A DNA stretch of 63,880 nt. Source: a virus. The notes under the pieces were generated by a model. The model was not told the origin of the DNA, ran no database searches, and saw nothing but the letters and a program-made list of their open reading frames with translations. The translations under genes and the position numbers were made by a program. Below, piece after piece: positions 1,808 to 58,774 of the stretch; position 1 is the stretch's first letter, and the number at the start of each line of letters is the position of its first letter. The stretch is from the IMG/VR virus record IMGVR_UViG_3300044731_001192, positions 1 to 63,880 of that record. One strand, written 5' to 3'.

Positions 1808-2273
1808 CTATAAACATTACACAGCAGAAGGTAGGGTAGTTTTACTATCCCACCAACTACCTGACAAAACCTACACTGGAGTCGTAACTAAAACTCACAC
1901 TACTGGAGAAATTACTACTATGTTATGGTTACCAGATGGACAATGTATACAAAACAGTAAATACAATATAATACCAACAGTAAATTACCATCAATTAGCT
2001 AAATTGACAAACACTACTTACGATTTAATTAGAACAGCCTACACTTCAGGTAAATTAAACATACAACCAGCCTTTACTAAGTACAGGGAAGTAATATTTC
2101 ACGAACAAGACGTACTAAACATGTTAAATAACTTCGACAAAAAAGAATTACGCAATTTAATTGTACAAGCAAGCAAAGAAAGCAGTAGAGCCAAGTACGA
2201 ACGAAGAAAAATTAGTAAAAAGTTGCACGAAATGCACTATGCTAATATGCTTACTACTCTAAACAAGGGGTAA
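1785..2273 (+). CDS. Putative HTH-containing protein
   Basis: A 162-residue protein with a strong site, GAGAAAGAG, before ATG 1785. Residues about 67-110 (HQLAKLTNTTYDLIRTAY, then VIFHEQDVLNML) resemble a MerR/excisionase-like helix-turn-helix with a wing. A charged helical tail rich in Lys and Arg follows. A DNA-binding role is inferred from this pattern only. Confidence 0.5.
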   Translation: MKIELTGNYKHYTAEGRVVLLSHQLPDKTYTGVVTKTHTTGEITTMLWLPDGQCIQNSKYNIIPTVNYHQLAKLTNTTYDLIRTAYTSGKLNIQPAFTKYREVIFHEQDVLNMLNNFDKKELRNLIVQASKESSRAKYERRKISKKLHEMHYANMLTTLNKG

Positions 2274-44455: not shown

Positions 44456-45013
44456 TTAACCACACTTACTAAAGCCGCAACTTGTACATGTTAAACACCC
44501 GTCCATTACTACTAGAGCTTCCTCTTTACATTCAGGACAAGTTAGTAATTTGGCAGGGACATTCACACTAACAACAACATTCAAAGAAGTTAAGTGAAAA
44601 TTAATGATGTCACCTATCTCATGGACAAGTGAATTATAATACTTACCTTTACCTGTCGACTTGTCTTTGCCCCAATAACCACTATTAGGAGCTGTTATTA
44701 CTGTAAGTTCTTCTACTACAAAAGAAATATCACCGCCTTTTCGAAATATCGCACTAATCATACGAGTTAATGCACTAATAAATTGAAAATTACTGGTATT
44801 CTTACTATTAACAAACACTTCAAAAGGTACATTATCTAAGTTATTAATTGTAATGTAATAACTATGTTCCTCGTTACTGGGTTTAATTTTGTAAGTAGTG
44901 CCATTTAGTAGTAATGCAGGACGCTCTAATAATGTACTAATAATTGGAGCTTCTTCCTGTACTTCGTCTTTACAAATCTTATAACCTACTATTTTCTTAT
45001 CTATTTTTACCAT
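44456..45013 (-). CDS. Stand-alone TSCPD domain protein (NrdJ C-terminal-like)
   Basis: A 185-residue protein. YYITINNLDNVPFEVFVNSK, then LTRMISAIFRKGGDISFVVE, is the TSCPD domain found in the C-terminal part of B12-dependent ribonucleotide reductase (class II, NrdJ). It ends in the zinc-ribbon-like CPECKEEALVV ... GCLTCTSCGFSKCG, again as in NrdJ. The catalytic alpha-barrel is not encoded in the window. It could bind the host reductase or be the small part of a split enzyme. AGGTGA precedes the start. Confidence 0.75.
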   Translation of the reverse strand: MVKIDKKIVGYKICKDEVQEEAPIISTLLERPALLLNGTTYKIKPSNEEHSYYITINNLDNVPFEVFVNSKNTSNFQFISALTRMISAIFRKGGDISFVVEELTVITAPNSGYWGKDKSTGKGKYYNSLVHEIGDIINFHLTSLNVVVSVNVPAKLLTCPECKEEALVVMDGCLTCTSCGFSKCG

Positions 45014-46753: not shown

Positions 46754-47029
46754 TTACGAAAACTTATTATCTATTATCAATGCACCGTTAAGTACAATCT
46801 TCACTCTACCAATTTCGGTAATAATACCCAGCTTCAGTAATTTATGTAAACATTTATTAACATTACATTGTGTCATGCCTAATTGTTTAGCTATTTGTGT
46901 TTGACTTATGGTTATAAACAAGTCATGTTGGTTATCTTGCTGTTTCAGTAGTAAAAACAGTACCCTGAAGTCACTACTATGTAATTTGAACAGCTCATTA
47001 GTATAAATATCAGTATGTAGGTGAATCAT
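46754..47029 (-). CDS. Small winged-helix DNA-binding protein
   Basis: A 91-residue protein made almost wholly of a winged helix: SDFRVLFLLLKQQDNQHD, then ISQTQIAKQLGMTQCNVNKC as the helix-turn-helix, then LLKLGIITEIGRVKIVLNG as the wing. It resembles the core of the RepL-like protein at 45148. It overlaps the polymerase stop by four bases (ATGA). Probably a regulator. Confidence 0.7.
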   Translation of the reverse strand: MIHLHTDIYTNELFKLHSSDFRVLFLLLKQQDNQHDLFITISQTQIAKQLGMTQCNVNKCLHKLLKLGIITEIGRVKIVLNGALIIDNKFS

Positions 47030-50000
47030 TTACAGTCTCCGTATGAAAGTTCACTCGTAAGTACGTTAGCTTTTATTACTAACGGGTCTGGGTAGTCTAC
47101 TTGTAACTCCATGTACTTTTTAATCCTTTCTGGGGCAGTAGTATCTTCTTTTTTAAAAATACCAGATAAACTATCATGAGTTTGTAGTAAAACATATATC
47201 TTATCATCACACATTCGTTCGTGCTTAACTAAATTAACTAATGCTTTATTCACTAAACAAGCTGTACTACTTTGCCCAATCCAAGCTACTACTTTATTTT
47301 CCCAAGTAGGTGATATAAAATCAGTAACATCACCTTTGAATCCAAACACATTAGTAACATAACCGTACTTCTTTGCTTCATTAATACGTCTAGTTTGCCA
47401 CACCTCTACTTCAGGGCATTTAGAATCATAAAATTGAAGTACTTTTTTAACTCTAGGTATACTTAATCCAGCTTTAGCAGCTAAAGTAGGTGCTTGTCCT
47501 CTGTAATTCTTACCATGAATAATACTCTTAAATATTTGACGTTCATTATCCTTCTTAGTAATATCTTTTTGGTAGTATTCACTAGCAAGAATACTATAAA
47601 CATCTTTACCGTCACGTATAATATCTTTGAGATATTTACAATCACTATCGTAAGCAACAAAACATAAGTCAACTGCTGAGTAATCAGAGTCAAAGAACAT
47701 GTAACCTACAGGCGGAATGAACATCTTCTTAACATTAGGAAGTTTAAGTATTCCTGAATAAGTATTATTAGCATCAGTTAGGAATTCAAAATCACTAAAT
47801 GTCTCATCAGTTTCTTGTAGTGCAATGTTTAAGTCTATTTTGCCCTTACTAGGCACGTTAGCCATATTTGTATTACCAGTGACATGAATTTCATTGTCAT
47901 AGCGTACTAACCACATAGTAGTAGGTGTTATAGGACAACCTACTACTCCTTTAAAGTATTCTTTATCCCAACGCTTACTCTCTAAACTACTATAATTTTT
48001 GTAAGATATACATAATGTGTATAATGGTTTTGTGCTAGTATTACCATATTCATTACTGTTAGTAAGGTCTATAGTTAAAGAAGCAGATATACCAGATATA
48101 TGGCACATAGTCTGAATTAAATCTACATTTTCGCGAATAGTTGAATAGTAATAGAAGCTTCCAGTATGTACTCCATTTTTATGACAAATATGTCCGTCCC
48201 AATAACTAAGTTCTTTTATAATTAACTGGCGTTGTCTAATAGGTAAGTCTAATAACCAAGTAGGAAATATCTTAGTATACCCTTTATCTGGTACTAAAAA
48301 TGTAGCATAACCTTCTTTATTATTTACACGAGTTCTGCAATCGGGAATAAGTTGTAGTAAGCGTTCTTTTTTACGGTCTTTTTTGAAAGATAATCTCCAG
48401 TTGTTTTTACTAGGTTCTAACCAACCATCTGCTGAACACACTACTAATAACTGTAACCACAAGTCCTCTATAGTATCAGTAACTTTTCCTTCATATTTTC
48501 CACAAATAACTGTATAAGTTGTAGTAAGTCTACTCATGTCTTTAGCTGTACGTATAGTGTTAAAGGTACTTCCTTTAGCTACGTCTCTATGACCTAACTG
48601 TAACATTCTATGTTCTGGTGTGAATAGTCCTTGTACATGTCTTCCATTATACTTCAATAGTTCCCCGTCCCAATCAGTAGTAAACCAGTCTACCTCTGCA
48701 AACTCTAACGTACCTTCTGCTGTGTATTGCATTATTCTACTAGGTTTAGTTGCTATCTTTACCCATCCTTCAGGAGTTAGAGCTTCTGCTTTTTCTATTG
48801 GTAGACAACCCCCACCAAACACATTCTTTCTACTAGAAAAACGATACGAAACAGTACCTGCTATATTATAATCACACCGCATTTTACCATCGTCATCTAA
48901 CTTAGCACTGAGAAAATTAGTAACAAATACCTTAATACTCTTATATTCAAGAAACAGAGTAAGAAGAGTTCTGTATTCTGGGTACGTATCTAAGTACGTC
49001 AACATAGCATCAGCACCGAAACTTTCACTACTACTTTTTCTATTACGCTTAGGAACTATACCTAACATGTCTTTAAATAGTCGTTTAACTTGCGGAGTAC
49101 TATTAAGATTGACTTCTTCACCACAGATGTAATTAATCTTAGTAATACATTCAGCCATTAAGTCTTTGAATATATTAAGATTCTTTTCTTTCTCATTAGT
49201 ATCTACTAAGATACCTCTGTTCATCATATCGACAACACAAGGGTTAAGTTCGTGTTGTTGAAACTCATAATTACGAAGTAGCGTCTCAGATTGTTGCAAT
49301 ACTTTATCTAAAAACTCAGTAATAGCTAATGTATATATAACGTCTTTACCGTTATATTTCCATCTAGTAAGATTATCTTTAACATCTATTTCATCTTTCC
49401 AGTAAGAATAATTATCACAATACATACTAGCAAGACTAGCTAAGTCTTTTTGCAAAGCATTATGCAGTACATGGTGCTGAATCATCGTATCGTAAGAAGC
49501 GTATACTCTAATCCACCAAGTTTTATAGTAGTATTGTGAATCGTAATTATAGTTTTGCCCAACATGTAAGCAATTATTATGCAACAGTACCTTATTAAGT
49601 AGGAATTGTATTTCACATTCCTCTTCTATAGTCCAGTAATGTCTAAACTTAGTGACAGTAGTACCAGCCAAAGCAGTAGCTCTCTGTTCAACACCGTACT
49701 TATTAATAAATGCAGGAGTATCCTCAGTAACTACAACAGAATACATCTCAATAAAAGGTATAGTGAAACTCTCATTACTTTTCCAACATAAACCAATACA
49801 ATCAATTGCTTGAAACTTTGTCTCAACATCTATTGATACTTTAGTTGGTTTTTTATCTAATTGTTCAAGTAACTCATTCAAGTAAGTTACTGCTTCAGGC
49901 AAAAGTAAAGCCACGTTAGTTATTTTATTGTCTGTTAGTATTTCATCAACAGACTTATTCTTTGCTTGCACTGCAAAACTAGCAACTTTAAGGTAGTCAC

Positions 50001-50718
50001 GTTGTATTATGTAGAACTTTTCTTGAATTTGGTAGTAAAATGCTGGCGACAACATCACTATTACGGCTACTTTGTTGTCTAACGGTACTTCTGAGTTAAA
50101 AGTAAGCAAACTACCTCTAAATTTATTCAAAGCACCGAATGGTTTAGGACTTTTTACAGTACTTCTAGTAGTTCCTATCGTTGCAATAGGTTTAGTACTA
50201 TCTTCTACATAAGTACCAAAAAGCATTAATGCCCATTTACCAGCAAGTACAACAATCTTTGGTTTTACTTTATTTATTTGTTCGATGAAAGCTTGTATTT
50301 GCCCATATAAATGCTGACTTACCCATACATCTTTAAGCCAAGTAATTTGTGTGTAAGTTTCGCCCTCTGGAATACCTCTTTTATTTACAAGACTATGTGC
50401 AAAGTCAAAATCACCTTTAGCATACCTTTCAGTGAATAGGTATGTGTAACAAACATTAGAATCATTTAGAAAATAACCATTAGAAGTAACAGCAGTTACT
50501 TTATTATCAGCTACTACTTTTTTCTTTGCTTCGTCTTCAGATAAGTATTTTGCCTCTGGAATAATGTTATGTATATTAGCTAACATACTAAAGCGTACTA
50601 AATTATTCTTAATTTCACCTGAAGAGTACTCAGAATACGGTTTACCACTACTTTCTTCTTTAACGAGTGGCATATCAGTGACAAACATTACATCTTTCTC
50701 ACTATATTCACGAATCAT
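47026..50718 (-). CDS. polA: Family A DNA polymerase with UDG-like domain and intein
   Basis: A 1,230-residue precursor. Residues 1-250 resemble a family 4 uracil-DNA glycosylase (KPKIVVLAGKWALMLFG, then LSPAFYYQ). Residues about 290-490 are a proofreading exonuclease (Asp297, Glu299; VGQNYNYDSQYY; KYNGKDVIY). The polymerase follows: RFSS, motif A DSDYSAVD (Asp1012), motif B RQIFKSIIHGKNYRG, motif C QTHDS (His1181, Asp1182). A 312-residue intein (638-949) interrupts it between GGG and TNMANVP. The spliced enzyme would have 918 residues. Confidence 0.92.
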   Translation of the reverse strand: MIREYSEKDVMFVTDMPLVKEESSGKPYSEYSSGEIKNNLVRFSMLANIHNIIPEAKYLSEDEAKKKVVADNKVTAVTSNGYFLNDSNVCYTYLFTERYAKGDFDFAHSLVNKRGIPEGETYTQITWLKDVWVSQHLYGQIQAFIEQINKVKPKIVVLAGKWALMLFGTYVEDSTKPIATIGTTRSTVKSPKPFGALNKFRGSLLTFNSEVPLDNKVAVIVMLSPAFYYQIQEKFYIIQRDYLKVASFAVQAKNKSVDEILTDNKITNVALLLPEAVTYLNELLEQLDKKPTKVSIDVETKFQAIDCIGLCWKSNESFTIPFIEMYSVVVTEDTPAFINKYGVEQRATALAGTTVTKFRHYWTIEEECEIQFLLNKVLLHNNCLHVGQNYNYDSQYYYKTWWIRVYASYDTMIQHHVLHNALQKDLASLASMYCDNYSYWKDEIDVKDNLTRWKYNGKDVIYTLAITEFLDKVLQQSETLLRNYEFQQHELNPCVVDMMNRGILVDTNEKEKNLNIFKDLMAECITKINYICGEEVNLNSTPQVKRLFKDMLGIVPKRNRKSSSESFGADAMLTYLDTYPEYRTLLTLFLEYKSIKVFVTNFLSAKLDDDGKMRCDYNIAGTVSYRFSSRKNVFGGGCLPIEKAEALTPEGWVKIATKPSRIMQYTAEGTLEFAEVDWFTTDWDGELLKYNGRHVQGLFTPEHRMLQLGHRDVAKGSTFNTIRTAKDMSRLTTTYTVICGKYEGKVTDTIEDLWLQLLVVCSADGWLEPSKNNWRLSFKKDRKKERLLQLIPDCRTRVNNKEGYATFLVPDKGYTKIFPTWLLDLPIRQRQLIIKELSYWDGHICHKNGVHTGSFYYYSTIRENVDLIQTMCHISGISASLTIDLTNSNEYGNTSTKPLYTLCISYKNYSSLESKRWDKEYFKGVVGCPITPTTMWLVRYDNEIHVTGNTNMANVPSKGKIDLNIALQETDETFSDFEFLTDANNTYSGILKLPNVKKMFIPPVGYMFFDSDYSAVDLCFVAYDSDCKYLKDIIRDGKDVYSILASEYYQKDITKKDNERQIFKSIIHGKNYRGQAPTLAAKAGLSIPRVKKVLQFYDSKCPEVEVWQTRRINEAKKYGYVTNVFGFKGDVTDFISPTWENKVVAWIGQSSTACLVNKALVNLVKHERMCDDKIYVLLQTHDSLSGIFKKEDTTAPERIKKYMELQVDYPDPLVIKANVLTSELSYGDCK
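47872..48807 (-). mobile_element. Intein with LAGLIDADG-type homing endonuclease
   Basis: 312 codons inserted in the polymerase. It begins with Cys638 (CLPIEKAEALTPEGWVKI), has block B TPEH (700-703), two endonuclease motifs (VVCSADGWL with Asp764; KELSYWDGHI with Asp841) and ends NEIHVTGN followed by Thr. The penultimate residue is Gly instead of the usual His, which occurs in some active inteins. The Cys1 nucleophile, last Asn and +1 Thr suggest it still splices. Confidence 0.88.
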
Positions 50719-52449: not shown

Positions 52450-53465
52450 AAAATAGCCTCATTTGTTTTAAGTTTAATGAATTCTTTAAGAGAAAGTGGT
52501 TCTTTCATTGTACTTGTATGAACTTGTTGAACAAAACCATCTTCTGTAAGGTCTTGATAGAAAGCACTTGTACAATGTTTTGTCAATAAACATGGTCTAA
52601 AGAACAAAGTACATCCATGTGAATAATTCCGTAAAAACTTATTATTACCTGTACTTTTTAACGTGTTGTATGTATTTAACATATTTTCAACAATGTTCAG
52701 TAAATTATTGTACCAAGTTCGTTGAAACCAAGCATCTACTTGAAATTCATAGCTTACTACCACATCTTCATTTCTTGCATAACTATTTTTAACTTTGCAT
52801 TTTCTGATACAAACATGGGTAATTTGTAAATCACCCAGTATATCTTTACGTTTATTACCAATAGTAACGTATTGTACGAACTGATTTTGTGTTCTTAACA
52901 TGTCTAATTGTACTTCATGACTTGATAAGACACTTTTACATGTCTTCTCGTCAACTACATATACTACATTGTCTCTTTGCCCTAACATGTCTAACTTACA
53001 TTTAAGAATAATAGGCTTGCCTGTATCTGGATGAGTAAAAGGTAGTTCAATACTAAAGTCTTGTTCTACTGCTATGCTACCATCTTTAAGTTCAAGTGGA
53101 GTAATACTTCTACTCTCAAGCGGGTATTCATTAAAGTAAGCCTTAAATACCTCTACCATTTTAGCAGGGGTTTTTACTGTATCTTCGCAATTAGCAAAGT
53201 AGTAATTAGTAGCTAAGTCATTCTCTAAGTTAGTTACTCCTACTTGTATGCTTTCTTCGCTGCATAACCCTTCTTTGTAGTAAGCATTACGTGTTAGTTC
53301 CATACTCTTAGCGAATTCACCACCAGCAGCGAGGTCGTTGTTATACGTACTTCTACTCCATGCCTCACACCTTAACTTGTACCATTTGTATTGACAATTA
53401 TTGTACACTTCAAAATCCCTAGAAGTACTTAACGTCTCAGGGAAAAAACTAAGTGGTAGTTCCAT
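52446..53465 (-). CDS. PD-(D/E)XK nuclease (RecB/Cas4-like)
   Basis: A 339-residue nuclease. CKLDMLG supplies Asp159 and VYVVDEKTCKS supplies the D/ExK pair (Asp172, Lys174). A QLDMLRTQNQFVQYV helix follows in the RecB/PDDEXK_1 order. Several Cys residues in the last third (GCTLFFRPC, HCTS) with Cys24 could hold an Fe-S cluster, as in Cas4/AddB-like enzymes. It probably resects DNA ends for the Sak4-like protein. Confidence 0.78.
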   Translation of the reverse strand: MELPLSFFPETLSTSRDFEVYNNCQYKWYKLRCEAWSRSTYNNDLAAGGEFAKSMELTRNAYYKEGLCSEESIQVGVTNLENDLATNYYFANCEDTVKTPAKMVEVFKAYFNEYPLESRSITPLELKDGSIAVEQDFSIELPFTHPDTGKPIILKCKLDMLGQRDNVVYVVDEKTCKSVLSSHEVQLDMLRTQNQFVQYVTIGNKRKDILGDLQITHVCIRKCKVKNSYARNEDVVVSYEFQVDAWFQRTWYNNLLNIVENMLNTYNTLKSTGNNKFLRNYSHGCTLFFRPCLLTKHCTSAFYQDLTEDGFVQQVHTSTMKEPLSLKEFIKLKTNEAIL

Positions 53466-53862
53466 TTTTAATCCTCTTTTGTAGTTCGAAGAATTGTTGT
53501 TCTTCAGTAGTTAAAATAATACCTTTATGTATTTTAAATACAATATCGGCAAGTTTTTGCACATTGTCTTCAATAACTTCTTCAATTACTGCTTTCTTTC
53601 TACTTGCTCGTACTTTCGGTATCTTAACTTTAGGTTCTTTAGGTATTTTAACTTTAGGTTCTTTTTTAACCTTAGTAACTACTATTTTAAACCCATCTTC
53701 TTGCAATACACGCCTACTTGCTACAACTATTCTAGTTTCAGCTATACTTAACATCTGCCCAACAGACTTAATTTTAAGTTTCTCAGCTTCATTATGCAGT
53801 TCTAGCAATTCTTGTGGCGAATACTCACCTTTAGTATTGTAAATATTCATAACATTAGCCAT
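53449..53862 (-). CDS. Lys-rich protein with tandem KEPKVKIP repeat
   Basis: A 137-residue protein. The middle holds two exact copies of KEPKVKIP, coded by 24-base tandem repeats at 53618-53665, followed by KVRASRKKAVIEE. This histone-H1-like basic linker suggests DNA or RNA binding. The flanks are helical. It overlaps genes on both sides. Function unknown. Confidence 0.6.
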   Translation of the reverse strand: MANVMNIYNTKGEYSPQELLELHNEAEKLKIKSVGQMLSIAETRIVVASRRVLQEDGFKIVVTKVKKEPKVKIPKEPKVKIPKVRASRKKAVIEEVIEDNVQKLADIVFKIHKGIILTTEEQQFFELQKRIKNGTTT

Positions 53863-54502
53863 TTATCGGTACATTTTCATCAGTTTGATAATAATAAGTT
53901 GGACTACCTAGTAGTGGATTGTATGATTGTTCACTATAAGTAACATTGTAAGTACCGTATTCTAAATCTACTTTAAAAGTAGCATCAGCAATGCAACTAT
54001 TTTTAAGTATTTTTAATGCTTTTTGCACATCATCGTACTTGTTTTGGTAGCTGCATATAATCATGTTACAAAGTATTGGGTAATGAGTAGTTTTAACTAA
54101 AGGCACATGTTCTAATAAAGACGAAACAATTGATGTTCTAATAGCTTCATTAGCATAGGCATTGCCTCGCATCACTTCTTGATAGTGTTTTGTAAGCTCT
54201 AGTACATCAAGTTTGGTAGTCAACATACAAGTGACACCAATTTCTTCAATCTCTTCTAATGTATACTCTCTGCCATAAACTAATCTTTTGTTAGGTTTAA
54301 GTACAAGTGACTGGTAATAGTCATGACACTCTGCTCTATCAATAGTAGTTGGGTCTATGCCAAGCAAACGTACAGTTTCATGTGAAGTGTAACATGTTGG
54401 GTTGTACATTTTAGTCCATATAATCGCTTCAGTTAGTGAGATTATCTCAGATTTAAAAGTACCAGATGTCAATAACATGGGTGTGCTAAGTATTGCTCTC
54501 AT
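53855..54502 (-). CDS. DUF1874 / AcrIII-1-like ring nuclease domain protein
   Basis: A 215-residue protein. Residues 1-100 follow the DUF1874 (STIV B116-like) pattern: LSTPMLLTSGTFKSEIISL, then YTSHETVRLLGI, an Arg-x-Glu pair, KPNKRLVYGREYTLEEIEEI and G. The family includes AcrIII-1, a viral enzyme that degrades cyclic tetra-adenylate and blocks type III CRISPR. The catalytic His is kept as His41 and Arg73 matches a second key residue; the usual nearby Glu position holds Tyr76. Residues 105-215 are an extra domain of unknown role. Confidence 0.75.
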   Translation of the reverse strand: MRAILSTPMLLTSGTFKSEIISLTEAIIWTKMYNPTCYTSHETVRLLGIDPTTIDRAECHDYYQSLVLKPNKRLVYGREYTLEEIEEIGVTCMLTTKLDVLELTKHYQEVMRGNAYANEAIRTSIVSSLLEHVPLVKTTHYPILCNMIICSYQNKYDDVQKALKILKNSCIADATFKVDLEYGTYNVTYSEQSYNPLLGSPTYYYQTDENVPING

Positions 54503-54873
54503 TCGTATGCTCCATTTGTTAAATTATTAATATGTGTTGTCTCGTCTGTAAGCTCTTCTTCAAGTTCACTTATTGTTTCATTCAAACCTTCCAACTCAAG
54601 TAAAAGTTCTCGGTATGAAGGTATGTCTTCTTTATCTATGTTGTTTACGTACTCTTGTAAAGCTAGTCTGTAGTCAGTAGGGCAAACATTTTTAAAAGCA
54701 TGACTACTTGTATAGTAGTTGCCTACTATAGTAACGTCTTCATAAGTATCATCAATCATTTCATCGAATTCGTCAGTGAAATCAGTAGCAGTAAGTTCGA
54801 ATGTGTCGATACGGTCTTGTACTGCATCTCTAACTGCTATAACATCAGCTAATTTTTCAAATATTTCGTCCAT
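54499..54873 (-). CDS. Acidic coiled-coil protein
   Basis: A 124-residue acidic protein (starts MDEIFEKLADVIAVRDAVQD). The C-terminal 40 residues form a coiled coil (LLLELEGLNETISELEEELT). Its stop overlaps the start of the DUF1874-like gene as ATGA, so the two are translationally coupled; a partner role is possible. Confidence 0.6.
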   Translation of the reverse strand: MDEIFEKLADVIAVRDAVQDRIDTFELTATDFTDEFDEMIDDTYEDVTIVGNYYTSSHAFKNVCPTDYRLALQEYVNNIDKEDIPSYRELLLELEGLNETISELEEELTDETTHINNLTNGAYE

Positions 54874-54906: not shown

Positions 54907-56208
54907 TTAACTCAGTCTATATAAATTTTCTTGTGTTCTACTATATGCTACATATCGTAACCTCTTTTTTAAGTTATTGTTATGACATAAATCTATGTCG
55001 TTATCACATACTATTACATTTTTTATGCTACTTCCTTGACTTTTGTGTACAGTCATTGCGTATGAATGTTTAATATTTGCAAATAGCATGTTAAGTCTAC
55101 TGTAATTCATCCATTTAATACTACGTTTACTTGTATCACGCTCATAAGTAGCGTCTCTGTGATACTTATATTTAAGTTTAGTAAAATCATTAAACAATAT
55201 TGGTGTGTAAAATGTAGCGACCGAATTACTACTGTAATGATTAGTTTTTATAGTTAATTCATAACAATCAACGCCAAGTATTGTTTTAGTGCTTACAGAA
55301 TTGACTACACCTTTAGTATTAGTAGTAAAAAGTGTATTCTCATTCTTCTTCTTATTGAGAATGTAGTCTATTGTACGGTCTTTACCACTAAGCTTATTTA
55401 CGAAACCGAAAGTAGGTTCAAATAGTATTACTTGGTCGTTCACTAAGAAGGCACTATCCGCAGCATGTGTACCAAAGATTGCATTTCTACTAAGTTCATT
55501 GTAGTAGTTAACCTTCTTATTAGTATAAGCTAGAAATTTACTACTGCCATTGAATATAGTTTCTATACCTTCTTGACTTGCTAAGAATTGATTAACAAAG
55601 TTAGTATTAACCTTGAATTTACTAGGCAGTATACCTACTGAATATATCAACTCCTCAGCTATAGTACAAAACTCATGTATCTCACCAGTACTTCTAACAT
55701 TCTCTACTAAGTCTATTGTTAAGTAATCTTTAGTGAAGACTGGTGGGATACACTTATCGTAAGTACCGACTTCTAGTATCGGTGGTAATTGACTTTTATG
55801 TCCAATAAAAAGTACATAAATGTTAAGTTGTTCTATTATTGACAACAACTCAGCACTGAGTGTACTACATTCATCAACAATAAGTAGATTGAAACTACTT
55901 AGGTCGGGTTCTTTTACTTGTTCTAGTACAAGTTTGTCTTCTCTAGCAGTCATGCAAAAGTTTAAAGCACTACATACTGTTTTTAATGTATACGCTTGTC
56001 CTAAGTTTATTTCAAGCTGCTTTACTGCCTCGTTGTAGGGGGCAAGTACAAGTGGTTTAATATTCGGTAGACTCTCTAAGAAATATTTTACTATGTACGT
56101 TTTACCTGTACCAGCCCCACCTTGTAGTAATGCTATTTTATTACTACCGTGATACCAGCGAGGTAATATTTGTAGTGCTTTTGTTTGACTATTTGTTAGT
56201 GTTGTCAT
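54907..56208 (-). CDS. SF1B helicase (RecD/Dda-like)
   Basis: A 433-residue helicase. Q/Walker A: NSQTKALQIL then LLQGGAGTGKT (Walker A residues 30-37). Walker B: LLIVDECSTL. Motif III: FIGHKSQLPPI. Motif V: MTVHKSQGSSIKNVI. Motif VI: YVAYSRTQENLYRL. This is the Dda/RecD2 type, 5'-3' translocases that load replication or recombination proteins. It is the first gene of the (-) early operon. Confidence 0.9.
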   Translation of the reverse strand: MTTLTNSQTKALQILPRWYHGSNKIALLQGGAGTGKTYIVKYFLESLPNIKPLVLAPYNEAVKQLEINLGQAYTLKTVCSALNFCMTAREDKLVLEQVKEPDLSSFNLLIVDECSTLSAELLSIIEQLNIYVLFIGHKSQLPPILEVGTYDKCIPPVFTKDYLTIDLVENVRSTGEIHEFCTIAEELIYSVGILPSKFKVNTNFVNQFLASQEGIETIFNGSSKFLAYTNKKVNYYNELSRNAIFGTHAADSAFLVNDQVILFEPTFGFVNKLSGKDRTIDYILNKKKNENTLFTTNTKGVVNSVSTKTILGVDCYELTIKTNHYSSNSVATFYTPILFNDFTKLKYKYHRDATYERDTSKRSIKWMNYSRLNMLFANIKHSYAMTVHKSQGSSIKNVIVCDNDIDLCHNNNLKKRLRYVAYSRTQENLYRLS

Positions 56209-56541: not shown

Positions 56542-57543
56542 ATGAATACACGTACAGATATAAACGCACTAAGGAATGTTAACCGTGATAGAGTAGCAGC
56601 AACAATAGCACCAGATGCTATTGAGTGTATCGAAGATTTAAGACAATATGTGGTGTACAACACCATACTAGGTAGAAACTGTTGTATAGTAAGCATGTCG
56701 TTAGTGAATATAGTATATACTGGTAACGGTGTAGTATGGTGTAAGACTCTTGACAAAATAGTAACTATGAAGTTGGGTAAGTTCCTGCACAAAGTAGGGC
56801 TTAATGACGCATTAGTAAAGGTATTAGTTGAAAAACAAAAGGTATTTGAGAGTAGCACCGATAACTACAAAGTGCTATTTACTAAGGACAGTGATGACAT
56901 CGTAAAAGCCTATGAAATACCACTATATGCTGAAGGAAGTACAAGTAAGTCTTGTATGACAGGTAGTGATAGTGTAAGGGTATATGCTGACAACGGTGAT
57001 TTGTCGTTGTTCTTAGTATATAACAATGAGGACAAGCTAGTAGCACGAACACTGGTACGTAATGGTAAGAAAACGGGTTACATCCGTGTATATTCGAACA
57101 GGAACTTGATTTCTAACAGTATTATGTACAAGCTGTTAGAGCAACACGGTTACAATGAAGTAACCGACCTAGATGGATGTTGCATAGATAAAGTATTCGA
57201 TGATTGCGGTAACCTCGTTTGCCCATACCTAGATGGTGATACTAAAGGTATTAGGGTGTACAGTGCAGCACTGCTAATTACCTCTGGTAGCCATGACTTT
57301 CTAGGAGATAGTACTTCTGGGATAGTAAGTGGTACTAGTTGCGACTGCTGTGAGAGAATAGTACCAGACGATGACATACACCAAAGTGTAAGTGACGTAT
57401 GGGTATGCAGTAGCTGCGTTACCGACTACTACTTATGGTTCGGGGAATCGTTGTACCACGAAAATGAAGTAACCCAACTAAGCGTATACATTACCTATGA
57501 AGGTAATGAGTACGACTACATCCCCACTAACTTTATTGCATAA
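56542..57543 (+). CDS. Paralogue A with SCMTGS motif and zinc-finger tail
   Basis: A 333-residue protein. Residues about 75-255 match the paralogue at 57554-58774: KLGKF, AYEIPLYAEG, SCMTGSDSVRVYADNGDLSL, KLVARTLVR, GNLVCPYLDGD and GDSTSGI. A zinc-finger-like tail follows (CDCCERI ... VCSSCVTDYY). SCM-type motifs occur in phage proteins of unknown function. First gene of the operon, with TGAGGAA before the ATG. Confidence 0.75.
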   Translation: MNTRTDINALRNVNRDRVAATIAPDAIECIEDLRQYVVYNTILGRNCCIVSMSLVNIVYTGNGVVWCKTLDKIVTMKLGKFLHKVGLNDALVKVLVEKQKVFESSTDNYKVLFTKDSDDIVKAYEIPLYAEGSTSKSCMTGSDSVRVYADNGDLSLFLVYNNEDKLVARTLVRNGKKTGYIRVYSNRNLISNSIMYKLLEQHGYNEVTDLDGCCIDKVFDDCGNLVCPYLDGDTKGIRVYSAALLITSGSHDFLGDSTSGIVSGTSCDCCERIVPDDDIHQSVSDVWVCSSCVTDYYLWFGESLYHENEVTQLSVYITYEGNEYDYIPTNFIA

Positions 57544-57553
57544 GGAGACTACT

Positions 57554-58774
57554 ATGCAATACAAGTTAATCAACCACAACCAGCTTGCACCAATACAAGA
57601 AGTGCAAGTTGCCATCGATGCTTACTTAACAGTAAGCCCAGACCACAGAGTAGTGCTTGACAGGCACTGTTATGTACAACTACTTGACTACGATAACGTA
57701 GTAGTGGACGTAATATCTCTTACTGATTTCTTATCAACGTACACGGACTACGATGATAGAACAGTAGAACATCTTTGTTGTAAGCAAGGTAATTTGAATA
57801 CTCGTAAAACTGTATTCTTACAACCTGCGGTAAAATTACTCCCGCATATCCGTAAACTAGTAATGCGAGCTTGTAGTAACCAATTTGGGATTGTACTAGA
57901 AGCTACAACAGACATTAGTAGCAATATAACTGTTACAAGTTTGTCTGGTACGTACCTAGTAAGACTTAATACTATCATTGGCGATAGTACAGACGACCAC
58001 GAGGTTATCAGTACATTAATCAACGAACATAGACTGTACGTTGAAAGCCAATTCAGCGACTACATGATGTTACTGCCTGAAATAGTAGATGCAATTGATA
58101 TTGGACTATGTAAAGAGAAAATTAAAGGTTTTGCTAGGTTCAGGTATGTAGGTAACTGCAACATAGAAGTAATTACTTTAATGAATCGTACAATTATTAA
58201 ATTGGGTAAATTTACCCGTATGTTCTCTACACTAAGTGATTATGCTATACGTGAGTTAGTAGAGAGTCAGAAAGCACTTGATAGTGACATAAGTAGATAT
58301 ACTATCAAGTACGTCAATAAAGCAGACGAATACGTAGCTGCTTATCGAATACCACTACATTGTCGTGGTAATGAGAATCCTAGTTGCATGACTGGCAGTA
58401 CAAGTGTACGAGTATATGCACATGACGTTAATCTAAAACTATTTCTAGTTTATTTAGAAAATAAATTAGTAGCACGTACACTAGTACGTACTGATATTAA
58501 TGCTTTTGTTAAGATATATCTTGATGAAAGTAGTATATGCCAGTCACAGGTTCACAGATTACTACAGTTAGAAGGTATTACTACAAGTTATAGTCTAACT
58601 GGAATAACACTTACCAAAGAATTAAATTTCGAAGGTAATATAGTATGCCCATTTATAGATGGGAGTACAGCAAGAATTACAGACTGTGGTACGCATTTAT
58701 TAATAGATATTAATGGTGCATCCCACTATGTAGGTAATAGTACAAGTGGTGTAGCTAATCCACATAACATTTAA
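57554..58774 (+). CDS. Paralogue B with SCMTGS motif
   Basis: A 406-residue protein starting MQYKLINHNQLAPIQEVQ behind AAGGAG. Its second half repeats paralogue A: LGKFTRMFSTLSDYAIREL, AAYRIPLHCRG, SCMTGSTSVRVYAHDVNLKL, KLVARTLVR, GNIVCPFIDGS and GNSTSGV. It lacks the zinc-finger tail. Its first 190 residues are only partly related, and the start of the related domain is in both. Function unknown. Confidence 0.75.
   Translation: MQYKLINHNQLAPIQEVQVAIDAYLTVSPDHRVVLDRHCYVQLLDYDNVVVDVISLTDFLSTYTDYDDRTVEHLCCKQGNLNTRKTVFLQPAVKLLPHIRKLVMRACSNQFGIVLEATTDISSNITVTSLSGTYLVRLNTIIGDSTDDHEVISTLINEHRLYVESQFSDYMMLLPEIVDAIDIGLCKEKIKGFARFRYVGNCNIEVITLMNRTIIKLGKFTRMFSTLSDYAIRELVESQKALDSDISRYTIKYVNKADEYVAAYRIPLHCRGNENPSCMTGSTSVRVYAHDVNLKLFLVYLENKLVARTLVRTDINAFVKIYLDESSICQSQVHRLLQLEGITTSYSLTGITLTKELNFEGNIVCPFIDGSTARITDCGTHLLIDINGASHYVGNSTSGVANPHNI

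Follow-up and report, generated by a model that had tools for sequence, protein, structure and literature searches.

The window analysed here, an IMG/VR virus record that is linear and 63,880 bases long, contains a run of minus-strand genes whose order is a Dda-like helicase, an acidic 124-aa gene, a 215-aa gene, a 137-aa gene and a candidate Cas4-like exonuclease (PHROG exonuclease match, E 0.00076), continued by a Sak4-like protein, a 236-aa gene and a family A DNA polymerase (Table 1). The 215-aa gene sits in a phage replication operon, between the helicase and the recombination and replication genes. The original prediction had placed a gene at this point and named no strand; an exact open reading frame with those limits is found on the minus strand, beginning with ATG and ending with TAA. 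Its codon usage, at 0.130 bits per codon, falls within the range of the genes of the window (mean 0.219, minimum -0.011) and does so in both halves of the gene, while the antisense frame and the two other forward frames over the same interval score between -1.04 and -1.46. The open reading frame is a real gene.

The start of the 215-aa gene overlaps the stop of the upstream 124-aa gene by four bases (ATGA, 54499-54502), and a further overlap of 8 bases joins it to the downstream 137-aa gene. The upstream product is strongly acidic, with 33 aspartate and glutamate residues against 7 lysine and arginine residues as counted on the printed sequence, so that the coupling to an acidic gene that had been proposed is present in the sequence. 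Promoter-like sites were fewer than the shuffle expectation, and terminator-like sites numbered one against 1.1 expected. In Klebsiella phage FKP3, which carries a homologue of the 124-aa (putative coiled-coil) gene, the neighbourhood of that homologue holds hypothetical proteins only.

Table 1. Positions in the window of the 215-aa gene, its parts and its neighbours
Feature	Position	Strand	Basis or remark
Family A DNA polymerase	47026-50718	-	about 310 extra residues (about 637-948) relative to the L001 polymerase
137-aa gene	53449-53862	-	
215-aa gene: N-terminal remote DUF1874 homologue and C-terminal extension	53855..54502	-	open reading frame, codon usage, homology with decoy control
C-terminal extension, residues 100-215	53858..54205	-	no convincing match
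DUF1874-like domain, residues 1-99	54206..54502	-	hhalign over residues 3-99; model pLDDT ~90 over most, Z 11.3 to 2j6b
Tyr76 codon, at the Glu88 position	54275..54277	-	Glu in 70/72 family sequences
Arg73 codon, equivalent of Arg85	54284..54286	-	alignment
Arg56 codon, equivalent of Arg66 in the hhalign register	54335..54337	-	
His41 codon, equivalent of catalytic His47	54380..54382	-	alignment
Coupled acidic 124-aa gene	54499..54873	-	phrog_9294 relative, E 1.7e-12
Dda-like helicase	54907-56208	-	

Relationship of the N-terminal domain to DUF1874

Conventional searches return little for the 215-aa protein. Pfam gave no match up to E 1, and the PF08960 gathering score was not reached; PADLOC gave no match, PHROGs had one marginal hit, which was to another family (phrog_13442, E 0.23), and the sequence search of the PDB reached a best E of 0.078 with DUF1874 structures absent among the matches. 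A tblastn search of 50,697 phage records produced five weak matches (E 2-5), four of which (E about 5) are to genes of Fusobacterium phages that belong to the DUF1874 family. Pattern scans of the viral contigs, genome contigs, plasmids and nine phage records, which are sensitive to close relatives only, found no full-length homologue, and indeed no homologue of any kind besides the protein itself.

To compare the protein with the family directly, we built family profiles from 83 DUF1874 loci drawn from genomes and viral contigs. A first, small family alignment gave a P of 0.001 only, and it was replaced by an alignment of 51 sequences, against which the profile-profile comparison with hhalign gave P 1.6e-6 and a probability of 90% over residues 3-99. 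The score was 42.8, whereas the highest among 850 decoys, made up of 150 versions of the protein with the first 100 residues shuffled and 700 unrelated open reading frames, was 23.1. In hmmsearch the protein was the top non-family open reading frame of about 1,400 scored (13.2 bits), against 8.4 bits for the next such frame and 9.5 bits for the best reversed one. When the family profile was run against the nine phage records it matched only two genes, the DUF1874 gene of contig L097 and the 215-aa gene (E 0.011), and in the reverse search, with residues 1-100 as the lone query, known DUF1874 proteins ranked first (E 1.5e-4). These tests draw on the same family sequences and are not fully independent, yet they agree over the full length of the domain. 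We are thus close to certain that residues 1-99 are homologous to DUF1874, as had been proposed for the N-terminal half of the protein under the name AcrIII-1-like, but because Pfam is silent we describe it as a remote homologue and not as a curated member of PF08960.

Comparison of a predicted structure with AcrIII-1 had been suggested as a check on this relationship. AlphaFold2 without an alignment was uninformative (mean pLDDT 34.6), whereas with the 51 DUF1874 sequences supplied as the alignment residues 1-100 were modelled with a pLDDT of about 90, except for residues 51-60 (65). The top 15 Foldseek matches of this family-guided model in the PDB were all DUF1874 structures, and VIA-align gave Z scores of 11.3 to AFV3-109 (2j6b), 11.3 to STIV B116 and 10.8 to AcrIII-1 (6scf); the next chain, an unrelated one, reached 5.6. 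Since the alignment input came from the DUF1874 family, the model is compatible with the DUF1874 fold rather than an independent proof of it.

The pocket and the C-terminal extension

Among 72 family sequences the columns of His47, Gly46, Arg66 and Arg85 are invariant, in the case of the glycine and histidine partly by construction, because one search pattern contained GH. The local alignment that pairs His41 with His47 is gapless, and the pairing of Arg73 with Arg85 is unambiguous, so that the two residues singled out in the original prediction are indeed retained; Arg56 corresponds to Arg66 in the hhalign register, with other registers possible. The replacement of the usual glutamate by Tyr76 also stands, at the Glu88 position, where the family has glutamate in 70 of 72 sequences and alanine in 2, but it is accompanied by other pocket losses that had gone unmentioned. 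Asn8, which is asparagine in all 68 family sequences with a residue in that column, is Ser6 here, Gly46 is Ser40, and the five residues that directly follow the histidine in the family are missing. In the crystal structure of AFV3-109 the histidine hydrogen-bonds the glutamate of the other monomer, and the ligand is surrounded by Asn, Glu, Thr and Leu (PMC1796864). Given that this glutamate pairs with the histidine across the dimer and that a tyrosine takes its place here, the alignment indicates that the pocket is remodelled through several changes, and does not simply lack one residue. The two family members with alanine at the Glu88 position (RLEAGQ) are Methylococcaceae DUF1874 proteins, L042 and L046, in which the histidine and arginine are kept.

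The C-terminal extension, put at about 110 residues in the original prediction, measures 116. A query of the C-terminal 117 residues gave no match in Pfam, and in PHROGs only phrog_25207 (E 0.18). Residues 101-215 of the family-guided model have a pLDDT mostly of 50-75, and the model suggests there, with low confidence, helices followed by beta strands. Structural matches to the tail (Z <=5.6) fall on this low-confidence region and were set aside.

Set beside the known members of the family (PF08960, STIV_B116-like; SIRV1 gp29, 6scf; AFV3-109, 2j6b), the protein resembles AcrIII-1 in aligning over the whole domain, in its equivalents of the histidine, Arg66 and Arg85, and in a family-guided model that superposes on the family structures with Z about 11. 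It differs in the substitutions at Glu88, Asn8 and Gly46, in the deletion after the histidine, in carrying an extension of this length within 215 residues, and in a sequence that lies below Pfam detection. Fusion of DUF1874 to other domains is known from Csx1-Crn2 (PMC7293037; structures 8y7f and 8y7g), in which the same domain is likewise joined to another part; there, however, DUF1874 is C-terminal, accompanies the Csx1 ribonuclease and belongs to a CRISPR locus, while the 215-aa protein comes from a phage and has the domain at its N-terminus, followed by an unrelated tail. A viral parallel is contig L085, in which the protein at 1912-2535 combines DUF1874 with WDGH (PF25311), both of them strong Pfam matches. 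It too has the DUF1874 domain at the N-terminus and about 100 extra residues, but it is an ordinary member of PF08960 (E 5.6e-30) with a WDGH tail, whereas the tail of the 215-aa protein has no Pfam match. What appears to be new here is a remote DUF1874 homologue that combines a remodelled pocket with a new tail.

Probable gene gain and loss among related phages

Five related contigs (L001, L096, L097, L100 and L101) have in common the order of helicase, 137-aa-type gene or its position, Cas4-like gene, Sak4-like gene and polymerase. Neither the 215-aa gene nor a full-length relative of the acidic 124-aa gene is present in any of the five, and these absences are provisional, the contigs being fragments. 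Between the helicase and the 137-aa-type gene there is nothing in L001 and L096, and in L101 there is an 87-aa gene. Provisionally, then, the operon slot of the 215-aa gene is filled differently or is empty in the relatives. Because they have the same replication genes without it, we conclude that the 215-aa gene is not part of the core replication machinery.

One of these relatives, L097, does carry an ordinary DUF1874 gene (1825-2151, minus strand; E 1.1e-22 with the family profile), in a phage that shares the helicase, Cas4-like and polymerase order. That gene encodes only 108 aa, matches Pfam (E 1.1e-12) and is placed upstream of the helicase, and it and the 215-aa gene are probably separate acquisitions. 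L100, a close sister of L097, has no DUF1874 gene at the equivalent place, so that within this group of phages DUF1874 behaves like an accessory gene that is gained and lost. The L097 protein is also matched by the PADLOC model for Csx16 (E 1.2e-7), perhaps because these two families of ring nucleases have related folds. A 60-aa relative of the acidic gene lies about 300 bases from the L097 DUF1874 gene, but an association of DUF1874 with the acidic gene family is unsupported, because the 60-aa gene is present in L100 as well, where DUF1874 is absent. As for the host, the terminase gave distant matches only (<=32% identity), to phages of different hosts.

Proposed function, alternatives and other features of the window

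AcrIII-1 degrades cA4 using its histidine, and Crn2 acts through the same histidine (PMC7293037; PMC12830947). A counter-defence role for the 215-aa protein is plausible from its sequence, and the likeliest single reading, which we put forward tentatively, is that of an active but altered signal-degrading protein. It would form a dimer, as AcrIII-1 does, and bind a cyclic oligoadenylate between the two subunits, with His41 acting as the general acid and Arg56 and Arg73 as supporting residues; removal of the signal would then leave type III CRISPR, or a related cyclic-nucleotide defence of the host, without activation. That the histidine and both arginines are retained speaks for a protein that still acts on a cyclic oligonucleotide, and the loss of the glutamate and the asparagine argues for a changed rate or specificity. 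With Tyr76 and Ser6 at the Glu88 and Asn8 positions, and with the segment after the histidine five residues shorter, the rate or ligand preference is probably unlike that of classical AcrIII-1. We do not file the protein as AcrIII-1, because Glu88 and Asn8 are replaced.

The same changes in the pocket could also mean that the protein binds without cleaving. It may bind tightly to a cyclic oligoadenylate, or to some other immune nucleotide, and neutralise the signal by sequestering it, with the tail possibly closing or multimerising the pocket, and we rate this as unlikely, though well short of negligible. AcrIII-1 can bind its ligand without cleaving it, for the inactive H47A variant has a KD of about 25 nM for cA4 (PMC7213978), and phages are known to use sponges that take up immune nucleotides (PMC11722364). 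The loss of the glutamate partner and the shortened segment after the histidine would suit such a protein; a protein that only binds should, however, have let the catalytic histidine drift first, and this is kept along with the two arginines, while the loss of the ligand-pocket asparagine should weaken binding itself. To a similarly low probability we assign a two-domain viral signal scavenger, in which a dimer pocket that lacks the His-Glu pair, and whose shape the deletion has altered, would recognise a different immune nucleotide or would only sequester it, the new C-terminal domain would set its target or assembly, and the acidic coupled product would be its partner.

The protein may instead have left immune signalling altogether, its fold being re-used, for example, within the replication operon for a regulator or a protein associated with DNA. 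The position of the gene between the helicase and the recombination and replication genes would fit this, as would the loss of much of the conserved pocket and the reported interaction of AFV3-109 with double-stranded DNA in vitro (PMC1796864). Against it are the relatives that have the same replication genes without the 215-aa gene, and the conservation of the histidine and arginine, and we consider it rather improbable, though slightly less so than binding without cleavage. A mere chance resemblance to DUF1874 would accord with the silence of Pfam, with phrog_13442 at E 0.23 as the only PHROGs match, and with the single-sequence model at a pLDDT of 34.6, but it is very hard to reconcile with the decoy-controlled profile comparison and the forward and reverse searches, all of which single out DUF1874 over the full domain, and we regard it as highly improbable.

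A survey by family profiles found AcrIII-1 in 36 of 28,114 phage genomes (PMC12409355). The 215-aa protein falls below the thresholds of such surveys while its relationship is still demonstrable, and hence viral DUF1874 proteins may be more numerous and more varied than such counts suggest. If the protein is active on cyclic oligoadenylates, the His-Glu pair would be dispensable or replaceable, and the protein would help to separate binding from catalysis in DUF1874.

Elsewhere in the window, the insert in the family A DNA polymerase begins with cysteine and ends with HVTGN before a threonine, and by these features it looks like an intein; Pfam reported no intein domain on the polymerase. Two adjacent plus-strand genes (56542-57543 and 57497-58774) encode proteins that have the stretch SCMTGS.SVRVYA in common and probably arose as tandem paralogues; phrog_6980 is matched by the first (E 2.7e-9), and a relative is found in L001 (1523-2647, minus strand). 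A 185-aa protein (44456-45013, minus strand) matches ribonucleotide reductase families, among them the large-subunit profile, of which it covers only the last part; it would be either a fragment or a small piece that stands alone.
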